A DNA stretch of 64,000 bases from Thermasporomyces composti. Lineage in GTDB: Bacteria > Actinomycetota > Actinomycetes > Propionibacteriales > Actinopolymorphaceae. The stretch covers positions 3,410,001 through 3,474,000 of the forward strand of contig NZ_QTUC01000001.1 of NCBI RefSeq assembly GCF_003386795.1. The letters run 5' to 3'. Both the position numbers and the translations under genes were made by a program. Below the pieces are notes generated by a model. The model made no database searches. It worked only from the letters and a program-made list of their open reading frames with translations, and was not told the DNA's origin. This document shows, piece by piece, positions 10,462-31,751 of the stretch; within the stretch, counting starts at the first letter, position 1; each line of letters opens with the position of its first letter.

Positions 10462-10775
10462 GTCGGCACCTCCAGCGCTGATCGTGATCAAGGCAGCCGG
10501 ACGCTACCAAGATCAGGTGCTGGCCGCCGACACCGCCGCCGATCTTGGTCGTCCGGTCGTGCCCCTCGACACCGGTGGGCGTGGCGAGGACCGGCGACCT
10601 CCGGCGGTCCGGCGAGGTTGGACCGTCGGGTCTGCGCGCAACGGTTGGGGAAATCGACGCTGGGGGAGTGCCTCGTCTCGATCGGCCGACCGTGGCCCGT
10701 GGGTGGGGAGGGGCGCCGGCGCGTCGGACGTGACACGATGAGGCTCCGGGCGGTGAGCGGAGCGGAGGTCAGGAG
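10462..10775. other. Divergent intergenic region with a 9-base inverted repeat
   Basis: The 314 bases between the PL8 gene and the WS/DGAT gene hold both promoters. ACCAAGATC at 10506-10514 and its exact complement GATCTTGGT at 10541-10549 are 26 bases apart, about 45 bases before the PL8 start. This could be an operator for the lyase. No coding sequence is supported. Confidence 0.45.
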
Positions 10776-13890: not shown

Positions 13891-14583
13891 CTACCCGGCG
13901 TCGAGAGAGTCGTCGAGTTCCTCGGCGGCGCCGGCCGCCTTGACCACCGCCTCGAGCTTCGACCGTGCGTCCAGCTTCTCCAGAATCCTTCGGACGTGGC
14001 TTCGAACCGTCGGGTAGGCGATGTTCAAGCGGGCCGCGATCTCGCGGTTGTCCAAGCCTTTCGACATCAGCTGGAGAATCTCTCGCTCGCGGGTGGTGAG
14101 ACTCTCCAACGCCTGCGCCCGATCCGACTTTCTCCGGGTTTCCTCCCGGCACTTGCTCAGCAGCTCGGCGAGCCGCTGGGCGGGGATGAGCATCTCCCCG
14201 TCGGCCGCCCGGCGTACTGCGTCAACGATCTCTTGACTGCTCGAGGTCTTGCACAAGTAGCCTGACGCGCCTGCCTCGACGGCGGCGATCATCGCTTGGT
14301 CGCTGTCGTCCGCGCTGACGAAGACCACCGTGGTGTCGGGCCGCTTCTCACGGATGCGACGAGCCGCGTCGACACCGCTCCCGTCAGGGAGCCAGTAGTC
14401 CACGACGAGCACATCGACTCGTTCTTCGTCGGCGATCCGCACAGCGTCGTCCACGGTGGACGCCCAACCGAGGACGGAGAGGTCCGGGTGCTCGTCGAGG
14501 AGGGCGGTCATGCCCTCCGCAACCACAGCGTGATCTTCCACGACGAGTACCCGAATCGGGCCGGTATCGGGTGGTGTGGTCAC
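13891..14583 (-). CDS. LuxR/NarL-family response regulator
   Basis: This 230-residue regulator has an N-terminal receiver with the phospho-acceptor Asp62 in VLVVDYWLPDGSG and a conserved Lys in GYLCKTSS. The C-terminal LuxR-type helix-turn-helix reads LTTREREILQLMSKGLDNRE followed by IAARLNIAYPTVRSHVRRIL. The GTG at 14583 is the start, because its first four bases GTGA overlap the stop of the upstream kinase. This tight coupling makes it the cognate partner of the hybrid kinase. It is the last gene of the seven-gene leftward operon with glycosyltransferases. Confidence 0.92.
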   Translation of the reverse strand: MTTPPDTGPIRVLVVEDHAVVAEGMTALLDEHPDLSVLGWASTVDDAVRIADEERVDVLVVDYWLPDGSGVDAARRIREKRPDTTVVFVSADDSDQAMIAAVEAGASGYLCKTSSSQEIVDAVRRAADGEMLIPAQRLAELLSKCREETRRKSDRAQALESLTTREREILQLMSKGLDNREIAARLNIAYPTVRSHVRRILEKLDARSKLEAVVKAAGAAEELDDSLDAG

Positions 14584-16490
14584 TCCTCGCCTCCGCGCCG
14601 CAGTCCCCCCTCGTGCGGAATCCAGAACTCCACGGTAGTACCAGCCCCGGGGGCGCTTTCGATCCGGCACCAGCCGCCGACGATGTCGGCGCGGTCCCGC
14701 ATGAGGGTTAGCCCCAGATGTCCCGGTCGTCCCTCCACCGAGCGTACGTCGAAGCCGACGCCGTCGTCGGTGATCTCCACCAGAGTGCCTCCCTCGACCC
14801 CAACCAGCCGCACGTCGACTCGCCGTGCCCGAGCGTGCTTGCGCACGTTCATCAGCGCGTCTTGGGCGATGCGGTAGATGAGAACCCGAGTCTGTCGCGG
14901 TGGCTCCTCCTCGAGGCGATTGTCTAGATGGCACTCGATGCCCGTCTCCGTCTGGAGTTGTTCGAGGTAGGCCTTGATGGCGGCGACGAGCCCCTCGTGC
15001 TCCAACGCCGGTGGGCGGAAGTCGAAGATCAGTCGACGCAAGCGGTCCGCGGCGAGTCGGATCGTCTCCTCGAGCTTGGCGAGAACCCGCAGGTCCTCAG
15101 GGTCGCTCAGGCGTCGACGGAGCTGCTGGAGGCGGAGCGCGGCGGCCGTGATGACCTGGAGGCTGTCGTCGTGGATGCCCGCCGCGATCCGCCATCGCTC
15201 GCGCTCCTGCGCGCCCACGAGGTCAACCAAGACGTTGCGATGGGACTGTCCCGCCGCCCGTAGCGTCTCGACGCTGCGCTCCAAAGCAGCGCGCGATCCG
15301 GCCATCTCGGTCATGTCCCGCATGGCCAGGATGACCTGGACACCTTCATCAGTCCGGATACGACCGATGCTCACGCTGACGGGAAAGTCGCTCCCGTCGC
15401 GCCGCCTGGCGGTCAGCTCCATGCTGACCGGCGTGAGGTCCTGCGCGCCGCGGGTGTCGTCGGCCTCCCGCCGATAGATGGTCACCGGGTGCTCGGGCAG
15501 CAGGACGTCGACCTCCTGGCCCACCAAATCCTCACGGGCGTAACCGAACAACTGCTCGGCGGCGGCGTTGACCAACTGGATCGTGCCGTCGGTGTCCACC
15601 AGGACGGTCGCGTCCGGGAAGGCCTCGAACAGGCGCCGGAAGCGGGCCTCGGTGAGGCTGAGCTCGCTCACGTCCCGGAGGAACACCGCGACTCCGCGTT
15701 GCCCGTGCGGCATGGGTGTGGCGGAGACCTCGACCGGAAACGTGGTCCCATCCTTGCGTCGTCCGGTCGCGGTGAAGTGGACCGCGGGTTCCTCGTCGGG
15801 CGGCTCCCGACGAACCAGCCGGTGAAGGAGCTCGTCCGCCGGTTCGCCGTACTTCGACGTCGGCACGAGAGTCGTCACCGGCAGGTCGATGAGCTCTGTG
15901 CGTCGGTACCCGAACAGTCGCGCCGCCCTGGCGTTCACGAGCTCGATGCTGCCGTCCGCCGCCACGAGCACGACAGCGGCCTCCACCCGGTCGAGCAGCT
16001 GTCGGAGGAGGTTGGCGTTCTGCAAGGCGACGGCGCCGGAACGACGCTCGTTCTCCAGCTCCCGTCGAAGCAGGAAGACGCACTCGCGCGCCAGCGCGGC
16101 CGACATGCTGAGCTGGCCACGTGCCGCACGGGCGATGGCCTCCAGCAGCTCCTCGTCACGGCTGCCCTTGACGAGGTAGGCGGACGCTCCCGCGGCCAGG
16201 ACCTCGATCGCGTTGCTGGCGTTCTCGTAGGCGGACAGGACGATCACAGCGGTCGTGGGCGAGCGGTCCTGGATCGCCTTGATCGTCGCTGGAGCGGTGC
16301 CACCCGGCATCCGGATGTCCAGGACGACGACCCGTGGCCGATCTCGGGCCGCGAGCCGGATGACGTCGTCGTGGTTGACCGCCTCCCCGACCAGCTCGAG
16401 CTCAGACTGGCTCGAGATGAGGTCGGCCAGGGCGTCGCGCATCGCCCGGTCGTCATCCGCGATCACCACGCGGATTCGTGGCTCAACCAT
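14580..16490 (-). CDS. Receiver-PAS-PAS histidine kinase (NarX/DesK type)
   Basis: This 636-residue soluble kinase has no membrane segment, so it senses a cytoplasmic or receiver-borne signal. It starts with a full receiver domain (acidic ADDD at 11-14, Asp58 in VVVLDIRMPGG, Lys in YLVKGS). Two PAS domains follow, at about 165-280 (RLFGYRRTELIDLP) and 290-405 (QLFGYAREDLVGQE). Next come the HisKA_3 dimerisation helix with His440 in ERWRIAAGIHDDSLQ and a C-terminal ATPase domain with NVRKHA and DDGVGFD. An N-terminal receiver on this kinase class suggests a phosphorelay or input from another kinase. It overlaps the gene before it by 8 bases and the regulator after it by 4. Confidence 0.92.
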   Translation of the reverse strand: MVEPRIRVVIADDDRAMRDALADLISSQSELELVGEAVNHDDVIRLAARDRPRVVVLDIRMPGGTAPATIKAIQDRSPTTAVIVLSAYENASNAIEVLAAGASAYLVKGSRDEELLEAIARAARGQLSMSAALARECVFLLRRELENERRSGAVALQNANLLRQLLDRVEAAVVLVAADGSIELVNARAARLFGYRRTELIDLPVTTLVPTSKYGEPADELLHRLVRREPPDEEPAVHFTATGRRKDGTTFPVEVSATPMPHGQRGVAVFLRDVSELSLTEARFRRLFEAFPDATVLVDTDGTIQLVNAAAEQLFGYAREDLVGQEVDVLLPEHPVTIYRREADDTRGAQDLTPVSMELTARRRDGSDFPVSVSIGRIRTDEGVQVILAMRDMTEMAGSRAALERSVETLRAAGQSHRNVLVDLVGAQERERWRIAAGIHDDSLQVITAAALRLQQLRRRLSDPEDLRVLAKLEETIRLAADRLRRLIFDFRPPALEHEGLVAAIKAYLEQLQTETGIECHLDNRLEEEPPRQTRVLIYRIAQDALMNVRKHARARRVDVRLVGVEGGTLVEITDDGVGFDVRSVEGRPGHLGLTLMRDRADIVGGWCRIESAPGAGTTVEFWIPHEGGLRRGGEE

Positions 16491-16926
16491 GCGGTGCTCC
16501 GACCCGTGCGAGCGCGGCGTGTGGGCTTGCTACCTGCACCTGGAGTGGAATGTCGTGGGTGATCCACGGCAGGGCGTGCGCGACCGGACCCACCAGGGTC
16601 TCGTAGTGGTCGGCGTCAACCCGGCCGCACAAGGCGACCGCGATCGCCGCGTCCCAGGTCGCGGCCCAGAATGCCCAGTCGGCGGTGTGGGAGCGGTTGG
16701 CCACGTCTATCGCCTTCTGGCGAGCGAGCGCGGCCGCGCCCAACGTGGCCAACCGCTCCCTCGGCGTCATTGCCTGCCCGATGGCGGCCCAGGCACTCGC
16801 CCGGGCTCGTGGCGACTGACGCCGCCGGTGGGCCGCCACCGCCTCGACCTGCCCGACGTCGAGCTGGTCGAGCGAGGAGAGCAGGTGCAGGACCCCTCGC
16901 GTGTTAGGCCCGAGGAAGTCGGTCAT
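16483..16926 (-). CDS. Uncharacterised 147-residue protein in the kinase operon
   Basis: No known family is recognised. The protein is soluble and mostly alpha-helical, with a basic Arg/Ala stretch (AAHRRRQSPRARASAWAAIG) and a Trp-rich segment (TADWAFWAATWDAAIAVALCG). The end is less charged (VAHALPWITHDIPLQV). Its stop lies inside the start of the hybrid kinase (8-base overlap), so the two are translated together and it may be a sensor accessory or signal-binding partner. The start at 16926 lies 42 bases after the repeat-protein gene. Codon use and GC content resemble the neighbours. Confidence 0.6.
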   Translation of the reverse strand: MTDFLGPNTRGVLHLLSSLDQLDVGQVEAVAAHRRRQSPRARASAWAAIGQAMTPRERLATLGAAALARQKAIDVANRSHTADWAFWAATWDAAIAVALCGRVDADHYETLVGPVAHALPWITHDIPLQVQVASPHAALARVGAPHG

Positions 16927-16968
16927 CGCGAGGCTCCTTCCTGGTCTCGCGCCCGGCTCGAGTCCTCG

Positions 16969-18348
16969 TCAGCGGCGCAGGTCCTCCGGCAGCTTGAACT
17001 TCGGCTGCGGCGGGATGTTCACCGGACCCTCGGGCTTGTCGACCTTGACAGTGACCGTCCCCGTGCCGCCGCTTCTCGCGCCGACCAGCCTGAACGTCAC
17101 GGACTTCTGCGCGTCCGCGGGGATCTGGTACTGGCCGGCGGCGGCCGCGTTACCTCGGGCGTCGACGCGGAAGGCGGCCACGAGTTCGTCCTCGACGTAG
17201 ACGTGTACTGCCTCGTTAGGCGCGAAGCCCTTGGCGTAGAAGTTCAGAACGGTCCCCGGAAGTCCGCCCCACGTGCTGGTGCGCACGACGGGCGTGTAGG
17301 GCTGGGCGAGGAAGCCCGCCTTGGCGGACGCGCGGCTCTGCTCGCCGACGAACACCAACGTCTGCCGGCCCTTGAGGCCGTACGGCACCTTGAACGCGAC
17401 CCCGCCGATTGTGCCGTTCTCCGCCGCCCGCATGGTGATCACCGGCGGACCGGAGACGTCGCCGAAGTAGCCGAGCACTCGCTCGTTGGGTGCGAAGCCC
17501 TTCCCGGTGAGCGAGATGAGCTCCCCCGCTCGGGCGGCGAACGGCTTGGTCAGAACCGAGGGGTACTGCCGAAGGAGCTGGAACGGTGCCATCGCGGTGG
17601 CCTTGCTCTTCGTTCCCATCAGGATGACGGTGTTGTGGCCCACCGGCCCGACGCCGACGCGCAACGGCTCGGCCTGAAGCTTGCCGGTCTCATCCGCTCG
17701 CAGCACGGCTGACGGCGTTCCGGTGATCCGTCCCCAGAAGACGTGAATCTTCTCGTGGGGCATGAAGCCCTCGGCGTCGACGGTCAGCGCGGTGCCGGGC
17801 TGGCCGACGTCCTTGCTGAGCTCGGCCGTCGCGACACCGGCCTGAGAGATCAGCTCGGCCCGGGCGGACTTCTTGCCGTCCTCCTGGACGACGGTCACGA
17901 ACTGCCGGCCGCCGGAGTTGGCCGCGCCCCACGGGTAGGTGAAGGACGTGTCGACCACGCCGTATCGGTCAACCCTGTCCGTGGCCATCACCTTGGGCTT
18001 GTTCTTCCCGATGGTCAACAGGACCTGCACTTGCGCGCCCTTGTCGAAGCCTGTGGCGTTGACGTTGACGGCGCTGCCCGGCCTCGCGAGTCCCGGGTTG
18101 AGAGTGGCGATGGGGCCGGTACCTACCGGAACCTTCTTGCCGTTGAACTCCACCACGCGCCGTGGCGTCTCCTTCCTCGGAGGGGCCTCTGCGGCAGGGC
18201 CTCCCCGGCCGGTGACGTCGAGGGCGTTCCGTGCGGACCCGCCGAGGAAGGACCGACCCAGGGAGACGACGACCAGCAGGGCCACCATCGCGATCAGGAT
18301 CCGTTTCCACGACCAGTAGCTCTGGTTCGTCCATGTCGGCATCTTCAT
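16969..18348 (-). CDS. Membrane-anchored protein with four Ig/IPT-like repeats
   Basis: This 459-residue protein has one N-terminal membrane anchor (ILIAMVALLVVVSLGRSFL, about 18-36). A Pro/Arg linker follows, then four related domains of some 85-95 residues. Each opens with a Pro-Gly turn and has a glycine-phenylalanine core: ATGFDKGAQVQV (98-109), AEGFMPHEKIHVFW (192-205), GKGFAPNERVLGYF (282-295) and AKGFAPNEAVHVYV (372-385). The layout suggests a stalk-like surface protein of IPT/Ig type. No enzyme motif is visible. The start at 18348 is taken because AAGGAG lies six bases upstream; a second ATG at 18351 is possible. It lies 43 bases after the GT39 gene, so it may be that enzyme's glycosylation substrate or a partner of the exported glycan. 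Confidence 0.75.
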   Translation of the reverse strand: MKMPTWTNQSYWSWKRILIAMVALLVVVSLGRSFLGGSARNALDVTGRGGPAAEAPPRKETPRRVVEFNGKKVPVGTGPIATLNPGLARPGSAVNVNATGFDKGAQVQVLLTIGKNKPKVMATDRVDRYGVVDTSFTYPWGAANSGGRQFVTVVQEDGKKSARAELISQAGVATAELSKDVGQPGTALTVDAEGFMPHEKIHVFWGRITGTPSAVLRADETGKLQAEPLRVGVGPVGHNTVILMGTKSKATAMAPFQLLRQYPSVLTKPFAARAGELISLTGKGFAPNERVLGYFGDVSGPPVITMRAAENGTIGGVAFKVPYGLKGRQTLVFVGEQSRASAKAGFLAQPYTPVVRTSTWGGLPGTVLNFYAKGFAPNEAVHVYVEDELVAAFRVDARGNAAAAGQYQIPADAQKSVTFRLVGARSGGTGTVTVKVDKPEGPVNIPPQPKFKLPEDLRR

Positions 18349-18391
18349 CATGTGCTCCTTGCCCCACACCCGTGCCGTCGAGGCGTGCTCC

Positions 18392-19984
18392 TCAGTCTCC
18401 GATCTTGTAGACCTGCAGATGGATGTCGCCGCGGTGCAGCTCCCAGACCACCCGTCCGTGCAGGTCGATCGCGTCAAGAATCCATTGCTCCTGACCTCCG
18501 GCGTTGTTGCGCTCCATCGCCGCGCGCATCTTGTTGGAGACCACGACGTAGTCGATGTTTCGCCAGCTGCGCCGAAACAGCTTGTCGCGCACGTCGGGGT
18601 CGGACGCGGCCTTGAAGTGGGAGTGAGCGCGCGGGAAGTACGGCTCACGGTCGTGCAGCGCGGTCCATATGTCGTCGTCGATGATCAGGCGAGAGTTGGT
18701 CGGGATGTTCTCCCGCACCCACCGAATCTGCTCCTCCTGGAGGGGCGTCACCGCCAGGTGGTAGAGGTCGTGGGCTTCGAGCTGCCGCTCGGTGTTGCGG
18801 GTGATGAAGTACCCACCGGGGATGAGAAGCGCCGCGCTCACCACCCCGACCGTCACCGCCGTTCGGGCCGACCGCGGTACCCGTTTCATCAGCGACCCGT
18901 ACAGCAGGCCGATGTTCATCGCCAGGACCGGAATCAGCGGGACGACGTAGAAGTCGAGCAGGATGCTCCCGCGCACCATGTAGAAGCCGTAGCCCAACGC
19001 CATCAAGGCGGCGACCAGGTAACCGGTCCGGCGCTGGCGGTCCTGTGACCACAGCATCAGGACCCCCACGACGGCGATGGCGCCGAGAACCAGGATGTAC
19101 GGGTCGCGGGCGAGCCAGCTGTTCTCCATGAGCCGGAGGAACAAGTTCCGACCCTCCGGACCGCTCCGGTTGATCTGCCACCAGATCGTGTAGAGCAGCG
19201 ACACGTGGTTCGCCGGCGGACTGTCGAGGTCGAAGTTGAAGCCGCTGGGGATCAGCTCCTTCTTCAGCTGCGCGAACGCCAGGTACATCGCGATGGGGGC
19301 GGAGAGGGCGAACCACCAGAAGCTCGTGACGAATCGACGGTTGCCACGTCCGCGCGCGTAGCGGTGCACCATGTACGCCAACGCGGGCACGAAGAAGATC
19401 GCGTTCTCCTTCGTCACGATCGCCAGCCCGAACGCCAGTCCTGCCGCCATGGCCGTCACCACCCGCTCCCTGGAGCGGGCGACGAGCCAGACGGCCAGGA
19501 GCAGCCACATGACCATGAGGTTGTCGAGAAGGACCTGGCGCTGGTAGTAGACGGCCAGGGGCGAGACGTTGAACAGGAAGCAGGCGGCGAAACCCCCGAG
19601 CGCCCCACCGCCGAAGCGACGGACGATCCCGAACAGCAGGCCGGAGCTGATGACGTGGGCGATGAGCATCAGCACCCGCATCGTGTTGATCTCATTGCCG
19701 AAGGCCTGGAACTGGCCGGGGAGGACGTTGGCCCAGGCCGCCATGAGCAGCCATCCGGCCGGGGCGTGGTCGTAGAAGTAGGTGTACGGCGAGAGCGTGC
19801 CCTCGCGCACCACCGACCAGGCCTGCTGGACATAGATGCCCTCGTCGGTGATGTACAGCGGGTAGCGGAACATGTTGACCCCATGGGTCACCGCTCCACT
19901 GACCAGGGACAGCAGCAACAGGCCGTTCCCCGGCCGCCGCAGCCACAGGGCGACCCGCTCGGACATCGACACGTCAGGCGCCAC
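18392..19984 (-). CDS. GT39/PMT-like membrane glycosyltransferase
   Basis: This 530-residue protein is a GT-C fold transferase that uses a polyprenyl-phosphate sugar at the outer face of the membrane. It has about ten membrane helices. The first external loop contains the acidic pair of the family, Asp47-Glu48 in YITDEGIY, and FYDHAPAGW and VYYQRQVLLDNLM are typical of ArnT/PMT relatives. A soluble C-terminal part with LIIDDDIWTALHDREPYFPRA follows. The acceptor cannot be deduced. Its start overlaps the GT2 stop by 11 bases, so it is coupled to that enzyme. With GtrA and GT2 it forms a plausible lipid-linked sugar export and transfer unit. Confidence 0.87.
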   Translation of the reverse strand: MAPDVSMSERVALWLRRPGNGLLLLSLVSGAVTHGVNMFRYPLYITDEGIYVQQAWSVVREGTLSPYTYFYDHAPAGWLLMAAWANVLPGQFQAFGNEINTMRVLMLIAHVISSGLLFGIVRRFGGGALGGFAACFLFNVSPLAVYYQRQVLLDNLMVMWLLLAVWLVARSRERVVTAMAAGLAFGLAIVTKENAIFFVPALAYMVHRYARGRGNRRFVTSFWWFALSAPIAMYLAFAQLKKELIPSGFNFDLDSPPANHVSLLYTIWWQINRSGPEGRNLFLRLMENSWLARDPYILVLGAIAVVGVLMLWSQDRQRRTGYLVAALMALGYGFYMVRGSILLDFYVVPLIPVLAMNIGLLYGSLMKRVPRSARTAVTVGVVSAALLIPGGYFITRNTERQLEAHDLYHLAVTPLQEEQIRWVRENIPTNSRLIIDDDIWTALHDREPYFPRAHSHFKAASDPDVRDKLFRRSWRNIDYVVVSNKMRAAMERNNAGGQEQWILDAIDLHGRVVWELHRGDIHLQVYKIGD

Positions 19985-21269
19985 CGCTCACCGCCTTCCC
20001 CTCGGGTATCGCTCGGTGCGCGCCGAGGTGCGTGGTCTTCTCCCAGTTGCCCTGGCCCGCGAGTTGCCGGCGTACGGCGCGCACGGCCGCGTAGGCGAGA
20101 ACCATCTGGTAGGGCAGCCAGGTCAGGATCATCTTGATCACGGTTCCCGAGGAGTACGTGAGTCCGTGTGCCTCGGTGAACTCGCGCAGGCCCACGATCG
20201 CGGTCACCAGGTGCGCGATGAGGAGGAGGACGGGAAGCAGCGAGAATAGGGCCACGCCGACCGGTGCGTGGAGCGCCACCATCATGATGAGCGCCGCGGG
20301 AGTGTAGAGACCGACGATCGCCTGAACGTAGGGAAACGCGAGCGTGTAGCAGGCGAGGAAGCGTTGGTGCCGTGTCGGCATCTGCCGCCAGACGCCCTTC
20401 CGCAGGGTCTGCATGAAGCCCTGGTTCCATCGCGTGCGCTGGCGGATGAAGCTTCCCAGGGTCGGTGGGGTCTCCTCCTTGGTGACGTACCGGTCGTCGT
20501 AGACGACGCGGATCCGCTCGCCGAGCGCGCTGATGCGCAGTCCGATCTCGGCGTCCTCGGTGAGGTTGTTCTCGTCCCACCCGTTGACCGACAGCAGAAG
20601 CTCTCGGCTGAAGAAGCAGGTGTTGCCGCCGAGTGGGGTCGAGCCATACCGGGCGTGGTGGTGGAGCCGGCTCTTGAACCAGAAGAAGTACTCCAAGACG
20701 TTGAACGTGGAGTACCAGTTGGAGTTGTAGTTCATCAGCTGGACGCCGGCCTGGACCACGTTGACGTCCTCGGTGCACATCACCGTGTTGACGACGTTGA
20801 GGATGTCCGGATGCATCTCATCCTCTGCGTCGAAGATCGTGACGACGTCGCCTTCGGCGTACCGCAGGGCGTGGTTGAGCCCATGTGGCTTGTTGATCGG
20901 TTGATCGTCGAAGATCACCAGTTCGGCGTTGTAGTAGCCCTCGGCGCGCAGCTCGTCGATCTTGTCGGCGGCTTCCTGGATGGTGCCGGTGTCGTCCGCG
21001 GAGCAGACGACGAGGACCTGCAGCAGAGAGGACGGGTAGTTACTCCGCACGATCCGCTCGATGGTCGCCGCGATGACCGCTTCCTCGTGCCGAGCGGGAA
21101 CGATCGCGGTGAATGACAGGTATGGTTCGACGAACTCGTCCGGAGCTCTCGCCGGCTGCTCCGTCTCCGGCTGGTCCCAGGTGTAGAGCATGAGGTAGAG
21201 AACGTGCCCCGCCTGGACGCTGAGCACCAGCGAGATCACGACGAGACCCGCGTAGATCAACGACTCCAT
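19974..21269 (-). CDS. Membrane GT2 glycosyltransferase, cellulose/chitin synthase-like
   Basis: This 431-residue enzyme resembles processive family 2 transferases. One N-terminal membrane helix precedes the cytoplasmic GT-A domain (LSFTAIVPARHEE). The metal-binding DAED is at 147-150, the catalytic-base TED at 237-239 and the QxxRW-type motif RQRTRW at 276-281. Three or four C-terminal helices follow (FPYVQAIVGLYTPAALIMM, LLPVLLLIAHLVTAIVGL). Its N terminus is read from DNA that also carries a 230-base extension of the GtrA frame. It lacks a PilZ domain, so c-di-GMP control is not indicated. The product could be a beta-glucan or another homopolymer. Confidence 0.87.
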   Translation of the reverse strand: MESLIYAGLVVISLVLSVQAGHVLYLMLYTWDQPETEQPARAPDEFVEPYLSFTAIVPARHEEAVIAATIERIVRSNYPSSLLQVLVVCSADDTGTIQEAADKIDELRAEGYYNAELVIFDDQPINKPHGLNHALRYAEGDVVTIFDAEDEMHPDILNVVNTVMCTEDVNVVQAGVQLMNYNSNWYSTFNVLEYFFWFKSRLHHHARYGSTPLGGNTCFFSRELLLSVNGWDENNLTEDAEIGLRISALGERIRVVYDDRYVTKEETPPTLGSFIRQRTRWNQGFMQTLRKGVWRQMPTRHQRFLACYTLAFPYVQAIVGLYTPAALIMMVALHAPVGVALFSLLPVLLLIAHLVTAIVGLREFTEAHGLTYSSGTVIKMILTWLPYQMVLAYAAVRAVRRQLAGQGNWEKTTHLGAHRAIPEGKAVSGGA

Positions 21270-21705
21270 GGGGCTTCCCGTTCCATATCCACGTGGTGCT
21301 GACGGTGAGGTTGATGACGAGCGCGGTGCAGATACCCACGAGGTTCGCCACCAGGTAGAACAGGCCGAGCCCGACGAGCACCTTCACCACGACGACATTG
21401 ACCACCAGGGCGACGAGGGCGGTCCCGTTGAACTTGAGGAACCGCGACAGCGCAGGCCGAGAGCCGAACGTCCAGATCTCGTTGACCGCGTAGTTGTGCA
21501 CGATCGCCGCTTCGACCGCGAGCCCGGTCGCCGGAACCAGCCGCATTCCGCCGACACCGTGCAGCAGGTAGAGCACGAGGTTGTTGACACCGACGCCGAG
21601 TAGTCCGACCAGGCCGAAGCGCCAGCTGCGGTGGTCTCGAACCAAGTCCAGTGGCCAGCGGTACCACGCCTGGCGCCGAGGCACCTTCGTCGCGCGCGTG
21701 CCCAT
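21040..21705 (-). CDS. GtrA-family membrane protein
   Basis: The first 140 residues form a GtrA domain with four membrane helices (FGLVGLLGVGVNNLVLYLL, VEAAIVHNYAVNEIWTF, ALVVNVVVVKVLVGLGLFYL, LVGICTALVINLTVSTTWIW). GtrA proteins are thought to flip polyprenyl-phosphate sugars or help glycosyltransferases. The family normally ends near residue 140, at about 21285. Here the frame stays open for 80 more codons that lie inside the GT2 gene in another frame and give a hydrophilic Arg/Gly tail. Either the tail is real, a stop has been lost, or a frameshift links the two. It is the first gene of the leftward operon. Confidence 0.75.
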   Translation of the reverse strand: MGTRATKVPRRQAWYRWPLDLVRDHRSWRFGLVGLLGVGVNNLVLYLLHGVGGMRLVPATGLAVEAAIVHNYAVNEIWTFGSRPALSRFLKFNGTALVALVVNVVVVKVLVGLGLFYLVANLVGICTALVINLTVSTTWIWNGKPHGVVDLRGSRRDLAGAQRPGGARSLPHALHLGPAGDGAAGESSGRVRRTIPVIHRDRSRSARGSGHRGDHRADRAE

Positions 21706-22205
21706 TCACCCGTGGCCCTCCTACTCGGATTCCTTCCATGCAACGCAATCCTCTGCGTCGAGGGAGCGCTTCACCTCCCGCCCGGATCCGCGATTGGCGC
21801 CCCGCTTCGGGGGAGTGGGCGTCTCCTACCTCGGGGTGAGCGGCCACCGGTCGACAGTCCCGGGCGAGCGTCGAGTGCTGGATGGGACATGGCGCAGGGT
21901 GGGCGAGAGCGTGTGGTCACGCTCGAAGCCGGTGATCAGACGACGTCCCCGCCTGACGCACGCGATCGGTTCGAACGAGGTTGTTGCGCCGAGACCGGAC
22001 GCAACGGGCAGGTGCGGCAGACACCCAAAGGCGTGGCCGTGGAGATGGTCTATGGGCCCACAGAGGAGGGCCTTCGTCGGGAGTCATCTCTTCCCGCGAA
22101 CCGGGGAAGGTCTCAGGTGACGGCCACTAGCCTCCTGAGAGGCGCGTCGACGCCGCGTGGCGGTCGACATGTGGCAGGAGCACGGGGGGGAAGGGGGGGT
22201 CGAGC
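21706..22205. other. 500-base divergent intergenic region, no gene supported
   Basis: This gap separates the leftward gtrA operon from the rightward response regulator and must hold both promoters. Open frames crossing it have no family-like content. A GTTGCG/CGCAAC inverted repeat lies near 21979-22001. A G-rich stretch (GGGGGGAAGGGGGGG) ends seven bases before the ATG at 22206 and may act as its ribosome binding site. Confidence 0.5.
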
Positions 22206-22853
22206 ATGCCTGTCCGCTTGCTGATCGCGGAGGACCACGCGGTCGTCCGGCAAGGCCTGGAGATGTTCCTGAAGCTGGACGACAGCGTCGAAGTCGTCGG
22301 TGAAGCACGCAACGGCCGAGAAGCGGTCGAGCTCGCCCATAAGCTTTCGCCCGATGTCGTGCTGATGGACTTGGTGATGCCGGTGATGGATGGCATCAGC
22401 GCGACTGCGGCGATTCGGCGTGACCTTCCGGATGTCGAGGTGGTCGCACTCACCAGCTTCTTGGAGGATCACCTCGTCACCGACGCGTTGCGGGCCGGCG
22501 CTATCGGCTACCTGCTCAAGGACACGGACGCGGAAGGGCTGCGCCGCGCGGTCGCGGCGGCCGCCTCCGGCCAGGTTCACCTGTCACCAGCGGCCGCGGC
22601 GCGCCTGGTGAGGGAGATGCGGGTGCCGAGCAATCCGGACCCGCTCACCAGGCGGGAGGTCGAGGTGCTCATCCTGCTGGCACGTGGCCGGTCGAACAAG
22701 GAGGTCGCGCGCGAGTTGTCCATTGGCCAGCAGACCGTCAAGACGTACGTGAGCAGCATCTTGAAGAAGCTGAACGTCCAAAGCCGCACCCAGGCGGCGT
22801 TGTACGCGGTGCAGACGGGGCTGGTGTCCACGTACGAGCTGGCGGAGACATGA
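22206..22853 (+). CDS. NarL/LiaR-type response regulator
   Basis: This 215-residue regulator has a receiver with the acidic pair in LIAEDHAVV, Asp55 in VVLMDLVMPVMDG and Lys in GYLLKDTD. A LuxR-type helix-turn-helix follows (LTRREVEVLILLARGRSNKE, then VARELSIGQQTVKTYVSSIL). It resembles LiaR/DegU-like regulators of the cell-envelope response. Its last codons overlap the kinase start by four bases (ATGA), so it is paired with that kinase. It is transcribed away from the glycosyltransferase operon. Confidence 0.92.
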   Translation: MPVRLLIAEDHAVVRQGLEMFLKLDDSVEVVGEARNGREAVELAHKLSPDVVLMDLVMPVMDGISATAAIRRDLPDVEVVALTSFLEDHLVTDALRAGAIGYLLKDTDAEGLRRAVAAAASGQVHLSPAAAARLVREMRVPSNPDPLTRREVEVLILLARGRSNKEVARELSIGQQTVKTYVSSILKKLNVQSRTQAALYAVQTGLVSTYELAET

Positions 22854-24478
22854 CGGGTGCGCGAGATGTCGCGCGCGCCGTGGACGACCGCGTGATTCGC
22901 GCGGCGGCAGAGGTGAACGCGGCGGTGCGCGACGGCCTCGACGAAGACACCGTCCTCGGGCTGGTGGCCCGGCGGGTTGGCGCGATGCTCGGGGCGCCGG
23001 CGTGCCTGGTCATGACCGTGGAGGATGACGAGACCTTGGTGGTGCGAGCGGCCGCCGGTCCCCTGGCGGAGGCGACACGCGGGATGCGGATCCCAACGGT
23101 CGACACCTTCGAGGGGGAGGTGGTACGACACCAGCGCAGCATCCGCCTGCCGGATGTCGGGGGTGACGGCGACGCCGCCAGCGTTCTGCCACCGATGGTC
23201 CGTGCCGTCCTGGCGGTTCCGGTGCCCGGCTACGGTCGGCCCAGCGGCGTCATCGAAGTGGGGGATGTCCATGGCCGCCGCTTCACCGCCGACGACGCCG
23301 ACCTCGTCGGCCTGTTCGCCGCTCACGTCGCCGTGGTGGTCGAGCACGAGCGTGCCGGCGCGGACCTGGAGCCCCTCGCCGACTCGTCTCCACCGGGCGC
23401 GGAGCCGTTGCCGGTGACGCTCGACTCGTTGACGAGTAGCGTCGTGGCGACGACGGGAGCCTCGGCGTGCGCGGTCGACCTGCTCCACGGGGACGCGCTT
23501 CGGCGGGCGTCCGGACACGATGTCCACCGGGTCCTCGACCGTGAGCTGCTCGCGGATGTGCACGACGCGGCGCGGCAAGCCGTCTCGGCGAAGTCCCCGG
23601 TGATCCGCAGGCGGGGACGAGACGGGAGTCTCGTGCAGGCTGAGCCGGACGGTCGCGCCGGCGAGGTCCCGACCGAGGCGCCCGGCGGCGCGCTGGTCTG
23701 CGTCCCGTTGACCTCGCGTGGGGGTGCGGTCGGAGTTCTCTACGCCGCGTGGCCCCCGGGACCCGGACCCACCGAGCTGGAGCTGGCGTACCTGTCGGCG
23801 GTCGCCGGGGAAGCGGCGACCGCTGTGGACAGCTCACACCTCGTCGCGGCGGCTCAGGAGAAGGCGACCCAGGAGGAGCGTCAGCGCCTGGCGAGGGAGC
23901 TGCACGACTCGGTGTCCCAAGCGTTGTACGGCATCGCGCTGGGCGCGCGGACGGCGCGGCAGACGTTGCGACGCGCGCCCGAGCAGGCCGACCAATCGCT
24001 CACCTACATCTTGTCGCTGGCCGAGACAGGGCTCGCCGATATGCGCGCGCTGATCTTCGAGCTGCGCCCGCAGGCGCTCGCCGAGGAGGGTCTCGTCGTC
24101 GCCCTCCACAAGCAGCTGGCCGCGTTGCGGGCTCGCCATGGCTTGGTGACCGAGGCGGAGCTGGGGTCTGAGCCGGCCGGCACCCTCGCGGTGAAGCAGA
24201 CTCTCTACCGGGTGGCTCAGGAGGCGCTGCAGAACGTCGCGCGGCACGCGCGGGCGAGGAGGGTCACGGTGCGACTGTCCGCGAGCTCGACCGCGCTGGA
24301 GCTGGAGATCAGCGACGACGGGTCCGGTTTCGACCCGCGCGCGGAGTTTCCCGGCCACCTCGGCCTGCGCTCGATGCGGGAGCGGGTGAGCGAGATCGGC
24401 GGGGTCTTGAACCTCACCAGCGAGCCCGGCAAAGGGACCACGGTGCGCGTGCGCGTGCCGAGCGGACTGTGGCCCTGA
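22850..24478 (+). CDS. GAF-domain histidine kinase (LiaS/DesK class)
   Basis: This 542-residue kinase is soluble. The first half holds two GAF-like domains, about 10-165 (ending VGLFAAHVAVVVEHERAG) and 180-330 (GALVCVPLTSRGGAVGVLYAAW), which would bind a small ligand, a cofactor or a redox cue. The HisKA_3 region has phospho-acceptor His352 in RLARELHDSVSQALYG. The ATPase domain has NVARHARARRVTVRL, ISDDGSGFDPRAEF and the G box GLRSMRERV. It pairs with the NarL-type regulator just upstream. The stop at 24478 is followed by a small tandem repeat and a strong hairpin. Confidence 0.92.
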   Translation: MTGARDVARAVDDRVIRAAAEVNAAVRDGLDEDTVLGLVARRVGAMLGAPACLVMTVEDDETLVVRAAAGPLAEATRGMRIPTVDTFEGEVVRHQRSIRLPDVGGDGDAASVLPPMVRAVLAVPVPGYGRPSGVIEVGDVHGRRFTADDADLVGLFAAHVAVVVEHERAGADLEPLADSSPPGAEPLPVTLDSLTSSVVATTGASACAVDLLHGDALRRASGHDVHRVLDRELLADVHDAARQAVSAKSPVIRRRGRDGSLVQAEPDGRAGEVPTEAPGGALVCVPLTSRGGAVGVLYAAWPPGPGPTELELAYLSAVAGEAATAVDSSHLVAAAQEKATQEERQRLARELHDSVSQALYGIALGARTARQTLRRAPEQADQSLTYILSLAETGLADMRALIFELRPQALAEEGLVVALHKQLAALRARHGLVTEAELGSEPAGTLAVKQTLYRVAQEALQNVARHARARRVTVRLSASSTALELEISDDGSGFDPRAEFPGHLGLRSMRERVSEIGGVLNLTSEPGKGTTVRVRVPSGLWP

Positions 24479-24600: not shown

Positions 24601-25827
24601 TTACCGCTGGTCAGCGGCTGGTGTGTGCAGGCGTGGCGCCTGGTAGGTCTTCAGCAGCTCCAGCTTGTCCTTGTGGACGGTCTTCCAGTCGTCCCGGAGG
24701 ACACCACCGGTGTCACCGGAGTTGGGGTTCCAGGACCAGTAGGTGTAGCTGATCCCGTTCTTCTTCAGGTAGTTCAGCAGCTCCCGGTGCCAGATACCCT
24801 CCGTGGTCTTCGGGCTCACCGAGCGCCCACCGAACTCACCCAGCAGAACCGGAGCGGTGCCTTCCTCGGCGATGTAGCCCCAGTGCCGCTTCCAGATGCC
24901 CGGCATGTTCTTCGGGAAGTCCTTGTCGCTGAACCAGGACTGCTGCCACACGCCGGGACCGTAGTCGTGGGCGGAGTAGACCAGCTTGGCCGGGTCGGAC
25001 AGCCGGACCGGGTGCTCCTTCACACCCATGAGGTTGCCGCCCCACCAGTAGTAGTCGTTGTCGTAGGCCTCGATGCCCTCGACGACGATGAGCCAGTTGG
25101 GGTTCACCTTCAGGATCGCGTTACCGGCGCGCTCGGCGGCCAGTCGCCAGTCGGTGTCGCGGTCGCCGCTACCCCACGTGGCCTCACCACTGGGCTCGTT
25201 GTGCAGGTCCGCGCCGATGACCAGCGGGTTGTTCTTGTACCGCTTGGCCAGCATGGTCCAGTCCTGGATCCAGCGCTCCTCGCTGACCTGCTCGTTGTAC
25301 CAAAGCTTGGTCTGCGACTGCGCCGTCGGACGGTGCCGGTCGAGCAGCACCATCAGGCCGCGGTCGGTCGCGCCCTTGACGATCCGGTCCAACAGGTCGA
25401 CGCCACGTAGCCCCTTGAGGTCGGGGTTGAGGCTGTAGTTGATGCCGGTCGGCTTGCTGTCGGCGTCGAACATCTCGTTGGTGTACGGCAGCCGGATCGT
25501 GTTGAAGCCGGACGAGACCATCTGGTCGAGCATGCTCTCCCAGTTGCGCGCCCACAGGCCGTGGGGCGCGAAGGTCTCCGTCTCGAAGCCGAACCAGTTG
25601 ACGCCAGTGAGCACAACCTCGCGACCGTGCGCGTCGACGAGCTTCGATCCCTTGGCGCTCAGCGGTCCGGAGAGCGCCTTGTCGCTCTTGCCGCTGCCGA
25701 GGCTAGGGGTGTAGGGGCCGACCAGGGACGCGACGAGAGCCGCCACCACGAGCACGGGAAGCACGATAGCCGCGATCTGGCCGATAATCGGAAGCTTTCG
25801 GAACCTGGAACTAAGCTGGGTCAGCAT
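24601..25827 (-). CDS. Membrane-anchored GH5 endoglucanase-like enzyme
   Basis: This 408-residue enzyme has an uncleaved-looking N-terminal anchor (PIIGQIAAIVLPVLVVAALVASLVG, about 13-37), then a short Ser/Gly linker and a GH5 barrel. NWFGFETETFAPHGLW is the typical opening strand. The acid/base Glu211 is in ADLHNEPSG, His287 in YSAHDYGPGVW and the nucleophile Glu331 in VLLGEFGG. These fit beta-1,4-glucanases of the GH5_2/GH5_1 type. The ATG at 25827 is chosen because GGAGGAG is directly before it; the longer frame lacks one. Its start overlaps the receiver gene by 17 bases. Anchoring at the cell suggests trimming of a self-made glucan rather than free cellulose digestion. Confidence 0.85.
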   Translation of the reverse strand: MLTQLSSRFRKLPIIGQIAAIVLPVLVVAALVASLVGPYTPSLGSGKSDKALSGPLSAKGSKLVDAHGREVVLTGVNWFGFETETFAPHGLWARNWESMLDQMVSSGFNTIRLPYTNEMFDADSKPTGINYSLNPDLKGLRGVDLLDRIVKGATDRGLMVLLDRHRPTAQSQTKLWYNEQVSEERWIQDWTMLAKRYKNNPLVIGADLHNEPSGEATWGSGDRDTDWRLAAERAGNAILKVNPNWLIVVEGIEAYDNDYYWWGGNLMGVKEHPVRLSDPAKLVYSAHDYGPGVWQQSWFSDKDFPKNMPGIWKRHWGYIAEEGTAPVLLGEFGGRSVSPKTTEGIWHRELLNYLKKNGISYTYWSWNPNSGDTGGVLRDDWKTVHKDKLELLKTYQAPRLHTPAADQR

Positions 25828-26224
25828 GCTCCTCCAGTAGGACGGTGATGAGGCTTTCCGCGCCAGAACACTTGCTGACGTGGCGGTGAAAGCCGGCGTT
25901 GGCGGACCGACGCAGCGCGTCGGCGTCGTCATAGCTGGACCACGCCACGGTTCGAATTGACGGGTCGTGGCGAGTCAGGTCATTGAGGATCGTCGGATAG
26001 GTGCCCGTCGACTCCAGGTCGAACAGAACGACGTGCGGATCGCGGGAACGCGCCAGCTCCAGGACCTCGTCGGCGTCGTGCGCGACGCCGACGAGGTCCA
26101 GCCGCGGCTCTTCCGACACCAGGTCGACGAGCGCTTCGAGCAGCTGCGGCTGGTTACCGACGACGGCGATTCGGCACTTTCGAATTTGATTCCTCCTGAG
26201 TCGGCGTCGATTTCCGTCGAACAA
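25811..26224 (-). CDS. Stand-alone atypical receiver-domain protein
   Basis: This 137-residue protein is a single receiver (CheY-like) fold with no output domain. The phospho-acceptor position is kept (Asp69 in VVLFDLES), as is the Lys of the fifth strand (Lys118 in HRHVSKCSG). The two acidic residues that bind magnesium are Asn24-Gln25 (AVVGNQPQLLEAL), so phosphorylation is doubtful. The start is uncertain: the ATG at 26224 has no clear ribosome binding site, whereas AGGAGG lies well placed for a rare ATT at residue 14. Its end overlaps the start of the GH5 gene by 17 bases, which implies coupled translation. It may tune the neighbouring two-component systems or partner with the glucanase unit. 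Confidence 0.75.
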   Translation of the reverse strand: MFDGNRRRLRRNQIRKCRIAVVGNQPQLLEALVDLVSEEPRLDLVGVAHDADEVLELARSRDPHVVLFDLESTGTYPTILNDLTRHDPSIRTVAWSSYDDADALRRSANAGFHRHVSKCSGAESLITVLLEEHADPA

Positions 26225-26570: not shown

Positions 26571-28385
26571 ATGACGACCTCGCCGCCCTTCACGCCACGC
26601 CGCCGCAGCGTCGTCCTCGGCGCCGCGGGCGCGCTCGCCGGAATCGCGACCGCGGCGGCCCCCGCGCACGCCGGAGGTTTGGCGAGGGCGGCCGGCGTGC
26701 GCCGCTGGGTGGAGGAGACCCTCCAGCGCATGTCCGTGGAGGAGAAGGTCGGACAGCTCCTCGTGACCCACGTCTATGGGGCCGACGCGCACACTCCGGA
26801 CAGTCGGAACACGTCGGAATACGGCGTGGCCACCGCCGCGGAGGTGGTCGCGAAGTACCGCCTCGGCGGGGTGTGCTACTTCACCTGGTCGGACAACATC
26901 GCCGACCCGCGCCAGGTCGCCCGGCTCTCGAACGGCCTGCAGGAAGCGGCGCTCACGAGTGGTGCCGGCGTCCCGCTCCTCATCTCCACCGACCAGGAGC
27001 AAGGAACGATCGTGCGGGTCGGGCCGCCAGCCACCCAGTTCCCGGGGAACCAGGGCTTGGCGGCCGGTCGCGACGTCGCGGCGGCACGTCGAGCGGCGGC
27101 CATCACCGGTCGCGAGCTTGCCGCGCTCGGGATCAACCAGGACTACGCGCCGGTCGCCGACGTCAACGTCAATCCGGCCAATCCGGTCATCGGGGTCCGG
27201 TCATTCGGCTCCGATCCCGCGCTCGCGGCCGCGTTCACCGCGGCGCAGGTCGCGGGCTACGAACGGGATGGTGGCGTCATCGCGACGGCGAAGCACTTCC
27301 CCGGGCACGGTGACACCCAGGTCGACAGCCACGTCGGAATTCCCGAGATCCGGCACACCCGCGAGGAATGGGAGCGGATCGACGCACCGCCGTTCCGCGC
27401 CGCCATCGAGGCGGGCATCGGCGCGGTCATGACCGGCCACCTCGTGTTTCCGGAGCTGGACCCCTCGGGTGATCCGGCCACGCTCTCGTATCCGATCATC
27501 ACCGGCCTGCTCCGCGAGGAGCTCGGCTTCGACGGCGTGGTGATCACCGACTCACTCGGCATGCGCGGCGTCCGTGACAAGTACGGCGACGACCGGGTCG
27601 TGGTGCTGGCGATCAACGCGGGTGTCGACATGCTGCTGCGCCCGCCGCAGTTCGACCTCGCGTACCAGGCGCTGCTCGAGGCCGTCCACAGCGGCGAGAT
27701 CAGCCCGGAACGCCTGGACGAGGCGGTCGGGCGCATCCTCCGACTCAAGGCCGAGCGCGGCATCGTCCACGACCCGTTCGTCGACGTCGACCAGGCCGCC
27801 GCCCGTGTCGGCACGCGCGCGCACCTGGCCCAGGCCGACCGCATCACGGTGGCGACCACCACCGTGGTGAAGAACGACGCCGGATTGCTGCCGCTCGCGC
27901 CGGGTCCGCGTGCGGTGCTCGTCACCGGTGCCAGCGCTGTTCCCGTCGCCGAGTTCGCAGCGGCGTTCGCCGCGCGCGGGGCCACGCCGACGACTCATCC
28001 GACCGGCACCCAACCGTCCGACTCCGCGATCGCCACGGCGGTCGCGCGCGCTCGAGAGAGCGAGCTTGCCCTCGTCGTGACGTACAAGGCCTGGGACACC
28101 GAGGTCACCGATCCCCAAGGGCGGCAGCGGCGGCTGGTCGGTGAGCTCCTCGCCACCGGGGTTCCGTTGATCGTGGTCGCGGTGCACGACCCGTACGACA
28201 TCGCCCACGTCGACGAGGCTCCGACGTACCTGGCGACGTACGCGCCCAACGCGGTGGCGACCCAGGCCGCCGCCCGAGTGATCTTCGGCGAGGTCGCCCC
28301 ACGCGGGCGCCTCCCCGTCCCGATCCCACGCGCGGACGACCCCGCGCAGATCCTGTACCCCTACGGTCACGGCTTGACCTGGTGA
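26571..28385 (+). CDS. nagZ: GH3 beta-N-acetylglucosaminidase, NagZ type, Tat-exported
   Basis: This 604-residue enzyme removes terminal GlcNAc from peptidoglycan fragments. A twin-arginine signal (PRRRSVVLGAAGALAG) ends near AHA at residue 34, so it acts outside the cell. The GH3 barrel carries the NagZ signature KHFPGHGDTQVDSH at about 241-254, with the Asp/His pair that serves as acid/base, and the nucleophile Asp327 in VITDSLGM. A C-terminal alpha/beta domain (LALVVTYKAWDT) follows, as in the longer Bacillus YbbD-like enzymes. It heads a rightward cluster with NamZ, a serine hydrolase, MurR and MurQ, which matches the Bacillus subtilis muropeptide recovery operon. Confidence 0.9.
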   Translation: MTTSPPFTPRRRSVVLGAAGALAGIATAAAPAHAGGLARAAGVRRWVEETLQRMSVEEKVGQLLVTHVYGADAHTPDSRNTSEYGVATAAEVVAKYRLGGVCYFTWSDNIADPRQVARLSNGLQEAALTSGAGVPLLISTDQEQGTIVRVGPPATQFPGNQGLAAGRDVAAARRAAAITGRELAALGINQDYAPVADVNVNPANPVIGVRSFGSDPALAAAFTAAQVAGYERDGGVIATAKHFPGHGDTQVDSHVGIPEIRHTREEWERIDAPPFRAAIEAGIGAVMTGHLVFPELDPSGDPATLSYPIITGLLREELGFDGVVITDSLGMRGVRDKYGDDRVVVLAINAGVDMLLRPPQFDLAYQALLEAVHSGEISPERLDEAVGRILRLKAERGIVHDPFVDVDQAAARVGTRAHLAQADRITVATTTVVKNDAGLLPLAPGPRAVLVTGASAVPVAEFAAAFAARGATPTTHPTGTQPSDSAIATAVARARESELALVVTYKAWDTEVTDPQGRQRRLVGELLATGVPLIVVAVHDPYDIAHVDEAPTYLATYAPNAVATQAAARVIFGEVAPRGRLPVPIPRADDPAQILYPYGHGLTW

Positions 28386-28487
28386 GCTCCTCGCCGTCAT
28401 GGTCGCCTTGACGACGGTGACCCCAAGGCGGAGATGCGGTCGCGTCGACCAGGCGCGGCCAGGCACGCTGAAACGGAGGAACGACGG

Positions 28488-29837
28488 ATGACCTCCCACG
28501 AGACGAACATGACGAGCCGCCGGGCTCTCCTCGGCTCCGCGGTCGCCTCCGCGGCCGCCGGTCTCACGCTGGGGTCCACCGCGGCCCACGCCGCTGACGA
28601 CGAGCCGGCGGGTGCCACCCGGACCGCGGGTGAGCGGAAAGGCCCGCCCTCGCGGGTGATGACCGGCGCTGAGGTCGCCGCGGCGCGCGGCTGGTCGATG
28701 TTGAGGGGCAGCAAGGTCGCCGTCTTCAGCAACCCGACTGGCATCCTGCCGGACACGACGCACATCGTCGACGACCTCGCGCGTCACGACGACCTGGAGA
28801 TCGTCGCCGTGTTCGGCCCGGAGCATGGCTTCCGCGGCAGCGCACAGGCCGGTGGCTCCGAGGGTGACACCACCGACCCGCGCACCGGGCTGCCGGTCTA
28901 CGACGCCTACGGCGCCAGCCAGGAAAAGCTGGCGGAGATGTTCACCAAGTCCGGGGCGGAGACGATGGTCTTCGACATCCAGGACGTCGGCGCCCGCTTC
29001 TACACCTACATCTGGACGCTCTACAACTCGATGGTCGCGGCGGCCCGGCTGGGCATGCGCTACGTGGTCCTCGACCGACCTAACCCGATCGGTGGGCGAG
29101 TGGACGGTGCGCTCATGACACCCGGCTACACCTCCGGTGTGGGGTTGAAGGAGATCGTCCAGCAGCACGGCATGACCGTGGGCGAGCTGGCCCGCTTCTT
29201 CAACGGCGAGTTCCTGCCCGAGGAGGCCGGCCGCCAGGTCGACCTGACCGTCGTCCCCATGAAGGGTTGGCGCCCCGACCTCCGGGCCCAGCAGTTCGAC
29301 CTGCCGTGGGTTCCGCCGTCCCCCAACATGCCCACGGCCGACACGGCGCTCGTCTACGTCGGCACCTGCTTCTTCGAGGGCACCAACGTCTCGGAGGGAC
29401 GCGGGACGACTCGGCCGTTCGAGATGATCGGCGCTCCCTACCTCGACTACCACTGGGGCGACCGGCTCAACGAGCTCGGCCTGCCGGGCGTGGTGTTCCG
29501 GGAGGCCTACTTCGTCCCCACGTTCAACAAGTACGTCGGCGAGACGTGCGCCGGCGTCCAGGTCCACGTCACCGACCTGCACGCCTTCGAGCCCATCCGG
29601 ACCGCGGTCGCGATGCTCGTGGAAGCCAAGCGCTACCCCGAGTTCGCCTGGCGCGAGGACTCCTGGGATCCCGAGCGGCCGTACTGGATCGACAAGCTGT
29701 CCGGGTCACCGCGGCTGCGGACCATGATCGACCAGGGTGCGAGCGTCGACGAGGTGGTCGGCGCCTGGGCTGAGGAGGTGCGGGAGTTCGACCGTCGGCG
29801 CAAGCCGTACCTGCTCTACCCGGGACGGCGGCACTGA
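28488..29837 (+). CDS. namZ: NamZ-type exo-beta-N-acetylmuramidase (DUF1343, GH171)
   Basis: This 449-residue enzyme belongs to DUF1343. The characterised Bacillus NamZ (YbbC) releases MurNAc from the non-reducing ends of peptidoglycan fragments. The ATG at 28488 follows GGAGG; an upstream ATG at 28434 is less likely. A Tat signal (TSRRALLGSAVASAAAG to AHA) directs export. Family blocks are VAVFSNPTGI, the glutamate-bearing FGPEHGFRG, FDIQDVGARFYTYIWTL, DRPNPIGG, WVPPSPNMPT and EGTNVSEGRGTTRPF. It lies 102 bases after nagZ and one base before the serine hydrolase, so the three exported enzymes form one unit. Confidence 0.92.
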   Translation: MTSHETNMTSRRALLGSAVASAAAGLTLGSTAAHAADDEPAGATRTAGERKGPPSRVMTGAEVAAARGWSMLRGSKVAVFSNPTGILPDTTHIVDDLARHDDLEIVAVFGPEHGFRGSAQAGGSEGDTTDPRTGLPVYDAYGASQEKLAEMFTKSGAETMVFDIQDVGARFYTYIWTLYNSMVAAARLGMRYVVLDRPNPIGGRVDGALMTPGYTSGVGLKEIVQQHGMTVGELARFFNGEFLPEEAGRQVDLTVVPMKGWRPDLRAQQFDLPWVPPSPNMPTADTALVYVGTCFFEGTNVSEGRGTTRPFEMIGAPYLDYHWGDRLNELGLPGVVFREAYFVPTFNKYVGETCAGVQVHVTDLHAFEPIRTAVAMLVEAKRYPEFAWREDSWDPERPYWIDKLSGSPRLRTMIDQGASVDEVVGAWAEEVREFDRRRKPYLLYPGRRH

Positions 29838-29838
29838 G

Positions 29839-31745: not shown

Positions 31746-31751
31746 TCCACT

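Follow-up and report, generated by a model that had tools for sequence, protein, structure and literature searches.

The locus lies in a 64,000-nucleotide stretch of Thermasporomyces composti DNA, referred to here as the window, and the genome that carries it is a single contig of 4.37 Mb. Seven co-directional genes occupy the minus strand from 21705 to 13891 with gaps of at most 43 nt, as the preliminary description had proposed: all of the open reading frames are present, every protein family that it named is supported by Pfam, and the second kinase/regulator pair that it placed divergently is found on the plus strand. Its limits for the unit were too narrow, as a stand-alone receiver protein and a transmembrane (TM)-anchored GH5 enzyme also belong to it, and in leaving out this endocellulase it missed the strongest indication of what the locus makes. 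The features are as follows.

13891..14583, minus strand: RR1, NarL/LuxR-type response regulator (REC, 89 bits; GerE, 67 bits)
14580..16490, minus strand: HK1, cytoplasmic histidine kinase of the Pfam architecture REC-PAS-PAS-HisKA_3-HATPase_c, without a TM helix
16483..16926, minus strand: 147-aa soluble protein of unknown fold (alignment; presence table)
16969..18348, minus strand: stalk, a protein with one TM helix and tandem GxPGS Ig-like domains that presumably lie outside the cell (NF058592; AlphaFold; Foldseek)
18392..19984, minus strand: GT39/PMT_2-like GT-C membrane glycosyltransferase (PF13231, 52.3 bits; first-loop TDEG conserved)
19974..21269, minus strand: GT2 cellulose-synthase-like glycosyltransferase (PF13641; D, DxD-type FDAED, TED, and QxxRW motifs)
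21040..21705, minus strand: GtrA-family membrane protein (PF04138, 70.8 bits)
21798..21815: candidate operator dyad CGCCCCgcttCGGGGGAG, of the CTCCCCC-N4-GGGGGAG type, about 95 to 110 bp upstream of gtrA
22206..22853, plus strand: RR2, divergent NarL/LuxR-type response regulator (Pfam)
22850..24478, plus strand: HK2, divergent cytoplasmic GAF-GAF-HisKA_3 histidine kinase (Pfam)
24601..25827, minus strand: GH5 endo-beta-1,4-glucanase, E1-like, with an N-terminal TM anchor (PF00150, 192.8 bits)
25811..26224, minus strand: RR3, stand-alone receiver protein (PF00072, 34 bits)

From GtrA to RR1, the junctions measure -230, -11, +43, +42, -8, and -4 nt; RR2 and HK2 overlap by 4 nt, and RR3 overlaps the start of the GH5 gene by 17 nt. 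The GtrA frame extends 230 nt into the GT2 gene (21040 to 21269), an unusually long overlap. Overlaps of 227 to 230 nt (once 212 and once 314 nt) recur in Actinopolymorphaceae and Micromonosporaceae, and in Streptomyces and two checked Chloroflexota loci the overlap is just 1 to 4 nt, with the GtrA frame ending at the GT2 start. A second selected frame within the overlap was considered and rejected, as divergence at 4-fold sites of the GT2 gene was 0.30 inside and 0.38 outside, a slight drop. Because this drop is small, the GtrA tail within the overlap is compositionally biased, and the frame stops at the GT2 start elsewhere, the long overlap is probably a harmless run-on. A sigma-70 promoter scan at the locus returned no match (mean in shuffles, 0.7).

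Several other gene groups were observed in the window. A row of GH3, DUF1343-like, beta-lactamase-like, RpiR/MurR-like, and MurQ-like genes at 26571-33625 is possibly a MurNAc-recycling cluster adjoining the locus, TadA/TadB/TadC/Flp/TadE-like genes at 42628-47293 read as a putative Tad-type pilus cluster, and a polysaccharide lyase family 8 (PL8) enzyme is encoded at 8053-10491.

We scanned 85,000 species genomes by alignment and obtained 27 true loci and one weak, unrelated match. The hosts were Actinopolymorpha, a minority of Streptomyces, Dactylosporangium, Planosporangium, and Chloroflexota MAGs. The preliminary description had let its grouping stand or fall with gene order across actinobacterial genomes; that order is kept in six Actinopolymorpha genomes, at least eight Streptomyces genomes, Dactylosporangium, and Planosporangium, a conservation across three families that is far beyond chance. 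The GtrA-GT2-GT39-stalk-HK1-RR1 unit is co-directional in the actinobacterial loci and is kept though its outer neighbors differ. In the six Actinopolymorpha genomes, the syntenic block starts with GH3, RR3, GH5, HK2/RR2, GtrA, GT2, and GT39 and continues with the stalk, the 147-aa protein, HK1, and RR1, after which come genes for a small hypothetical protein, a patatin-like protein, and a diacylglycerol-acyltransferase-like protein; one locus (L015) shows part of this block, and there GH5 and HK2 are separated by additional genes. RR3 is kept in the Actinopolymorpha loci and partly in those of Streptomyces.

At E values up to 1e-60, the GT2 family was found in 14 of 397 Actinomycetota genomes, the window's own included; in Chloroflexota, it was found in 38 of 400. 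A GT39 gene adjoins the GT2 gene in all 10 of the distant actinobacterial loci inspected and in 10 of the 11 Chloroflexota loci inspected, the exception (L102) being without a GT39, and the GT2-GT39 pairing is ancient. In the GT2 tree, all of the loci bearing two-component genes form one clade of 17 rows (support, 100/99), which is nested in a clade of 24 rows (98/98) whose Chloroflexota members have the stalk gene and, contig permitting, GH5.

The FDAED, TED, and QRTRW motifs of the GT2 protein are invariant in 21 of 21 aligned homologs from two phyla (Actinomycetota and Chloroflexota), as is the second aspartate of its DDTG motif. Among solved sequences, BcsA is its nearest relative (E = 7.5e-12), and, judged by motifs and sequence, it is a BcsA-like, cellulose-synthase-related enzyme. 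It falls below every NCBIfam equivalog cutoff (BcsA equivalog TIGR03030, 46.5 bits against a cutoff of 699.1). The structural model (pLDDT 84) resembles PcManGT, which ranks first, BcsA, and hyaluronan synthase (HAS), and it has a single TM helix at the N terminus and about three at the C terminus, about four in total and fewer than BcsA. With so few helices and a mannosyltransferase as the top structural match, processivity is not certain. GtrA and GT2 are fused in two of the relatives (L072 and L079). In another locus, the GT2 (L071:5753-7558) carries a C-terminal GAF domain, which may allow direct allosteric control of the synthase.

The GT39 protein scores above the PMT-domain cutoffs (PF02366, 24.7 bits, in addition to PF13231), and its only match among solved sequences is TMEM260, a protein O-mannosyltransferase, at an E value of 0.022. 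Its membership in the PMT families, this match, and the position of the stalk gene directly after that of GT39 would suit protein O-glycosylation, in which GT2 would make a lipid-linked sugar, GtrA would flip it, and GT39 would transfer it to Ser/Thr residues of the stalk, with GH5 as a nearby nutritional cellulase. We consider this scheme unlikely. The GT2 has the QxxRW motif and is not DPMS-like, and separate DPMS-like GT2 genes occur in several loci, either inside the clusters (L041 and L106) or fused to GtrA (L074). Most of the distant GT2-GT39 loci are without a stalk gene, and GH5 is linked in nearly every complete locus. In five relatives, moreover, GT39 and GH8 form a single fused protein (L070:5015-7663, L071:7731-10463, L097:6367-9033, L098:11261-13858, and L099:6868-9606), and these fusions argue for a glycan rather than a protein as the GT39 acceptor.

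The AlphaFold model of the stalk (pLDDT 81) has one TM helix at residues 14 to 33, after which beta-sandwich domains are strung together in a row, and the four repeats noted earlier for this anchored protein are thereby confirmed. The GxPGS Ig-like domain (NCBIfam NF058592) is found in the window's stalk and in 18 of 24 aligned members, and the Foldseek matches are tandem Ig-like chains. Kinship with complement or A2M chains was considered and rejected, as the likeness is that of generic tandem Ig-like proteins with low TM-scores. The stalk is rare: among 297 genomes drawn from the class, beyond the window's own, there were two weak partial matches only. The scarcity of stalk genes at distant GT2-GT39 loci rejects an essential GT39 acceptor as a general rule; the "likely surface acceptor" of the preliminary description thus stays on as one guess among others, and a role as a stalk or synthase partner fits equally well. 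The 147-aa protein is restricted in the presence table to Actinopolymorphaceae and Streptomyces loci and matched no credible Pfam family (DUF2368, E = 0.013, in one of seven members only).

The window's GH5 matches endocellulase E1 at an E value of 4e-120, both of its catalytic glutamates (those of NEP and of GEFG) are invariant in 18 sequences, and a TM helix lies at residues 53 to 71 of the longer open reading frame. The enzyme is thus an E1-like endocellulase predicted to be active on beta-1,4-glucan. A GH5 gene is found near all loci of the scan except L028 and L034, both of which are truncated by the end of a contig. It is divergent in Streptomyces, lies right behind RR1 or slightly downstream in Micromonosporaceae, and is near the stalk genes in Chloroflexota, where one GH5 (L041) bears a CBM3 cellulose-binding domain. 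Distant GT2-GT39 loci also have GH5 (L078, L103, L105, and L106), and other enzyme families recur: besides the five fusions, GH8 adjoins GT2-GT39 in two loci (L073 and L077), and GH6 is present at L079 and, in addition to GH5, at L025. Among the genomes checked, the GH8 of the locus is the sole GH8 of the genome in three (G507, G627, and G653) and the GH6 of the locus the sole GH6 in one (G397). No recognizable cellulase was found near six loci (L072, L076, L101, L102, L104, and L107), and one (L096) is cut by the contig end. These counts of linked cellulases come from about 20 loci chosen by hand; GH assignments outside the window were made by Pfam or tblastn similarity, and genes in the relatives were called with a simple codon-model caller.

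Two further arrangements were seen in Streptomyces. In L025 (6888-9102), the GH6 gene and a gene for a subtilase with a C-terminal hydrophobic helix lie between GH5 and gtrA. A paralogous locus (L074:4690-11235 and, in the same arrangement, L075:3974-10661) has the order GT2, GT39, a DPMS-GtrA fusion, and a GlxA-like (AA5-type) copper oxidase; within the phylum sample, 5 Streptomyces-like genomes carry its type of GT2, and the locus seems to encode a second cellulose-like system separate from cslA-glxA.

The repeated linkage or fusion of GT2-GT39 to unrelated beta-1,4-glucan enzymes is our main argument that the product is likely a cellulose-like beta-glucan, and the same association, including the GT39-GH8 fusions, suggests that GT39 works on or together with the glucan. 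The GH8 and GH5 families also include enzymes for other beta-glycans. Their breadth, the closeness of the GT2 model to the mannosyltransferase PcManGT, and the second sugar that GT39 would add are consistent with a different beta-linked exopolysaccharide (for example, a glucomannan or another mixed glycan) as the product of this machinery, with the cellulases cutting only glucose-rich stretches. We find this doubtful, however, as GH6, the E1-like GH5, GH8, and CBM3 all converge on beta-1,4-glucan.

Each of the pairs HK1/RR1 and HK2/RR2 consists of a HisKA_3/HATPase kinase and a neighboring REC-GerE regulator. HK1 had been described as a hybrid kinase; it does have a receiver domain, but this is N-terminal, and the protein has no TM helix. 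As no TM helix was found in either kinase, the signal is probably cytoplasmic or internal rather than external. The HK1 match is shorter in Micromonosporaceae, the 4-nt overlap of RR1 and HK1 is kept in most relatives, and RR2 is up to 90% identical in relatives. The RR2/HK2 pair lies divergently upstream in Actinopolymorpha and Micromonosporaceae and beyond GH5 in several Streptomyces genomes. HK1 and RR1 are absent from the four Chloroflexota loci examined closely (L040, L041, L043, and L047). Because Chloroflexota have the core without them, the two-component genes, which are confined to one actinobacterial clade, appear to be no original part of the glycan machine, and the simplest reading is that they joined a preexisting glycan locus once.

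This Chloroflexota core and the lack of a glycan-specific sensor domain in the kinases could also mean that the two-component genes adjoin the glycan operon by accident and that the two serve or regulate separate processes. Such a coincidence seems to us very improbable: HK1-RR1 follows right behind the stalk or the 147-aa gene in three families, mostly with 4-nt overlaps, the other surroundings of the locus differ among these families, and the upstream dyad tracks with HK1-RR1.

The region upstream of gtrA has otherwise diverged, with one invariant block, the dyad element, in 7 of 7 Actinopolymorphaceae. The dyad of the window is imperfect (12 of 14 positions), its score being reached in 9 of 400 dinucleotide shuffles. 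Streptomyces loci have perfect or near-perfect CTCCCCC-N4-GGGGGAG dyads (14 of 14 in L039, L042, and L046), with scores reached in 0 to 10 of 400 such shuffles. By the same measure, three of the actinobacterial regions tested (L014, L035, and L044) are not significant alone. All of the Micromonosporaceae loci except L034 contain the half-site GGGGGAG. The dyad is absent near the start of the Chloroflexota loci, one half-site lying 2.5 kb off in L047. In the whole genome, the strict 16-base form occurs once; it alone is specific, as a loose scan allowing 3 mismatches was uninformative and was set aside (867 matches, against 1,096 in the reversed control). Nothing relevant to the dyad was found in open-access papers. 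Its position and its co-distribution with the two-component genes suggest that it is a candidate operator for RR1 or RR2, and its tracking with these genes fits dedicated control but is no proof of it. The earlier idea of a signal-controlled glycan unit therefore keeps its conserved unit of overlapping genes and gains an upstream dyad, but the two-component genes are not an original component.

We infer, with a probability of about 0.6, that the products of the locus make a cellulose-like (beta-1,4-linked) surface glucan by a synthase-dependent route and that this system has gained transcriptional control of its own. GT2 would polymerize glucose from UDP-glucose at the inner face of the membrane and pass the chain outward. 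GtrA would deliver a polyprenyl-phosphate sugar to the outer face, a donor with which the DPMS-like GT2 genes in Chloroflexota clusters fit, and GT39 would use this sugar outside, either to decorate the emerging glucan or to attach it to an acceptor. GH5, anchored in the membrane, would trim or release chains, like BcsZ, CcsZ, and CslZ in known systems; the Clostridioides endoglucanase CcsZ is itself a GH5. The Ig-like stalk may organize the complex or convey the glycan across the wall. The pairs HK1/RR1 and HK2/RR2 would sense cytoplasmic signals via their PAS and GAF domains and control transcription, probably via the dyad.

A broader proposal, which we put forward tentatively and at less than even odds, is that GT2-GT39 forms the core of an unrecognized class of beta-glucan machine in Actinomycetota and Chloroflexota, in which a synthase on the cytoplasmic side is coupled to an outer-face GT39 that acts on a polysaccharide instead of proteins to give decorated cellulose, with dyad-operator two-component control in one filamentous clade. 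Few beta-glucan synthesis systems have been characterized in Gram-positive bacteria, namely, Streptomyces CslA-GlxA and one Clostridioides system (PMC11022532). If the proposal is true, a widespread second core (GT2 plus GT39), equipped with an endocellulase and regulators, would explain surface glycans of lineages such as Actinopolymorpha, Dactylosporangium, and many Chloroflexota and would be an example of a GT39 acting on a polysaccharide, and the candidate operator and regulators would be a possible switch for the production of such glycans.

The locus had been called unrecognized from known loci, and we likewise found no description of it in the open-access literature. The Gtr (GtrA-GtrB-GtrC) O-antigen glucosylation cassette is likewise an operon that combines GtrA with a GT2 and a multi-TM GT-C. 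However, the present GT2 is a QxxRW synthase of the Glyco_tranf_2_3 type rather than a GtrB/DPMS protein, and being of the wrong type it places the locus outside these cassettes; the present loci also have linked cellulases, and their Gram-positive hosts are without O-antigen. Bacterial protein O-mannosylation (PMT, GT39) shares the GT39-type GT-C and, presumably, a polyprenyl-phosphate sugar donor, whereas the GT39-GH8 fusions and the GT2 partner of the present loci point to a polysaccharide.

The closest likenesses are to cellulose systems. Bcs (BcsA-BcsB-BcsZ) and Clostridioides CcsA-CcsB likewise combine a cellulose-synthase-like GT2 with an endoglucanase, but the present GT2 is shorter, with fewer TM helices, and is accompanied by GT39, GtrA, and two-component genes. 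Neither BcsB nor PilZ matched any of the ten locus proteins scanned (Pfam; for BcsB, also NCBIfam), and no locus protein matches the galactose-oxidase families of Pfam, in which GlxA was sought. Given these absences and the low BcsA score, we place the locus outside both Bcs and CslA-GlxA. The cellulose system of Streptomyces, CslA-GlxA-CslZ (PMC11022532, PMC3543389), resembles it in having a GT2 with DxD, TED, and QxxRW, a single-TM partner, and an endoglucanase in filamentous actinobacteria. In contrast, the present core has GT39 and GtrA and no GlxA, its partner candidate is the Ig-like stalk, its endoglucanase is a GH5, and cytoplasmic two-component pairs lie within the unit; a link between the two is that the Streptomyces paralog of the present GT2-GT39 pair adjoins a GlxA-like oxidase. 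Cellulose-type systems pair a core synthase with a nonhomologous second partner (PMC11022532), and the logic that the locus shares with CslA-GlxA-CslZ, Bcs, and Ccs is that of a synthase, a single-TM partner, and an endoglucanase (PMC11022532).
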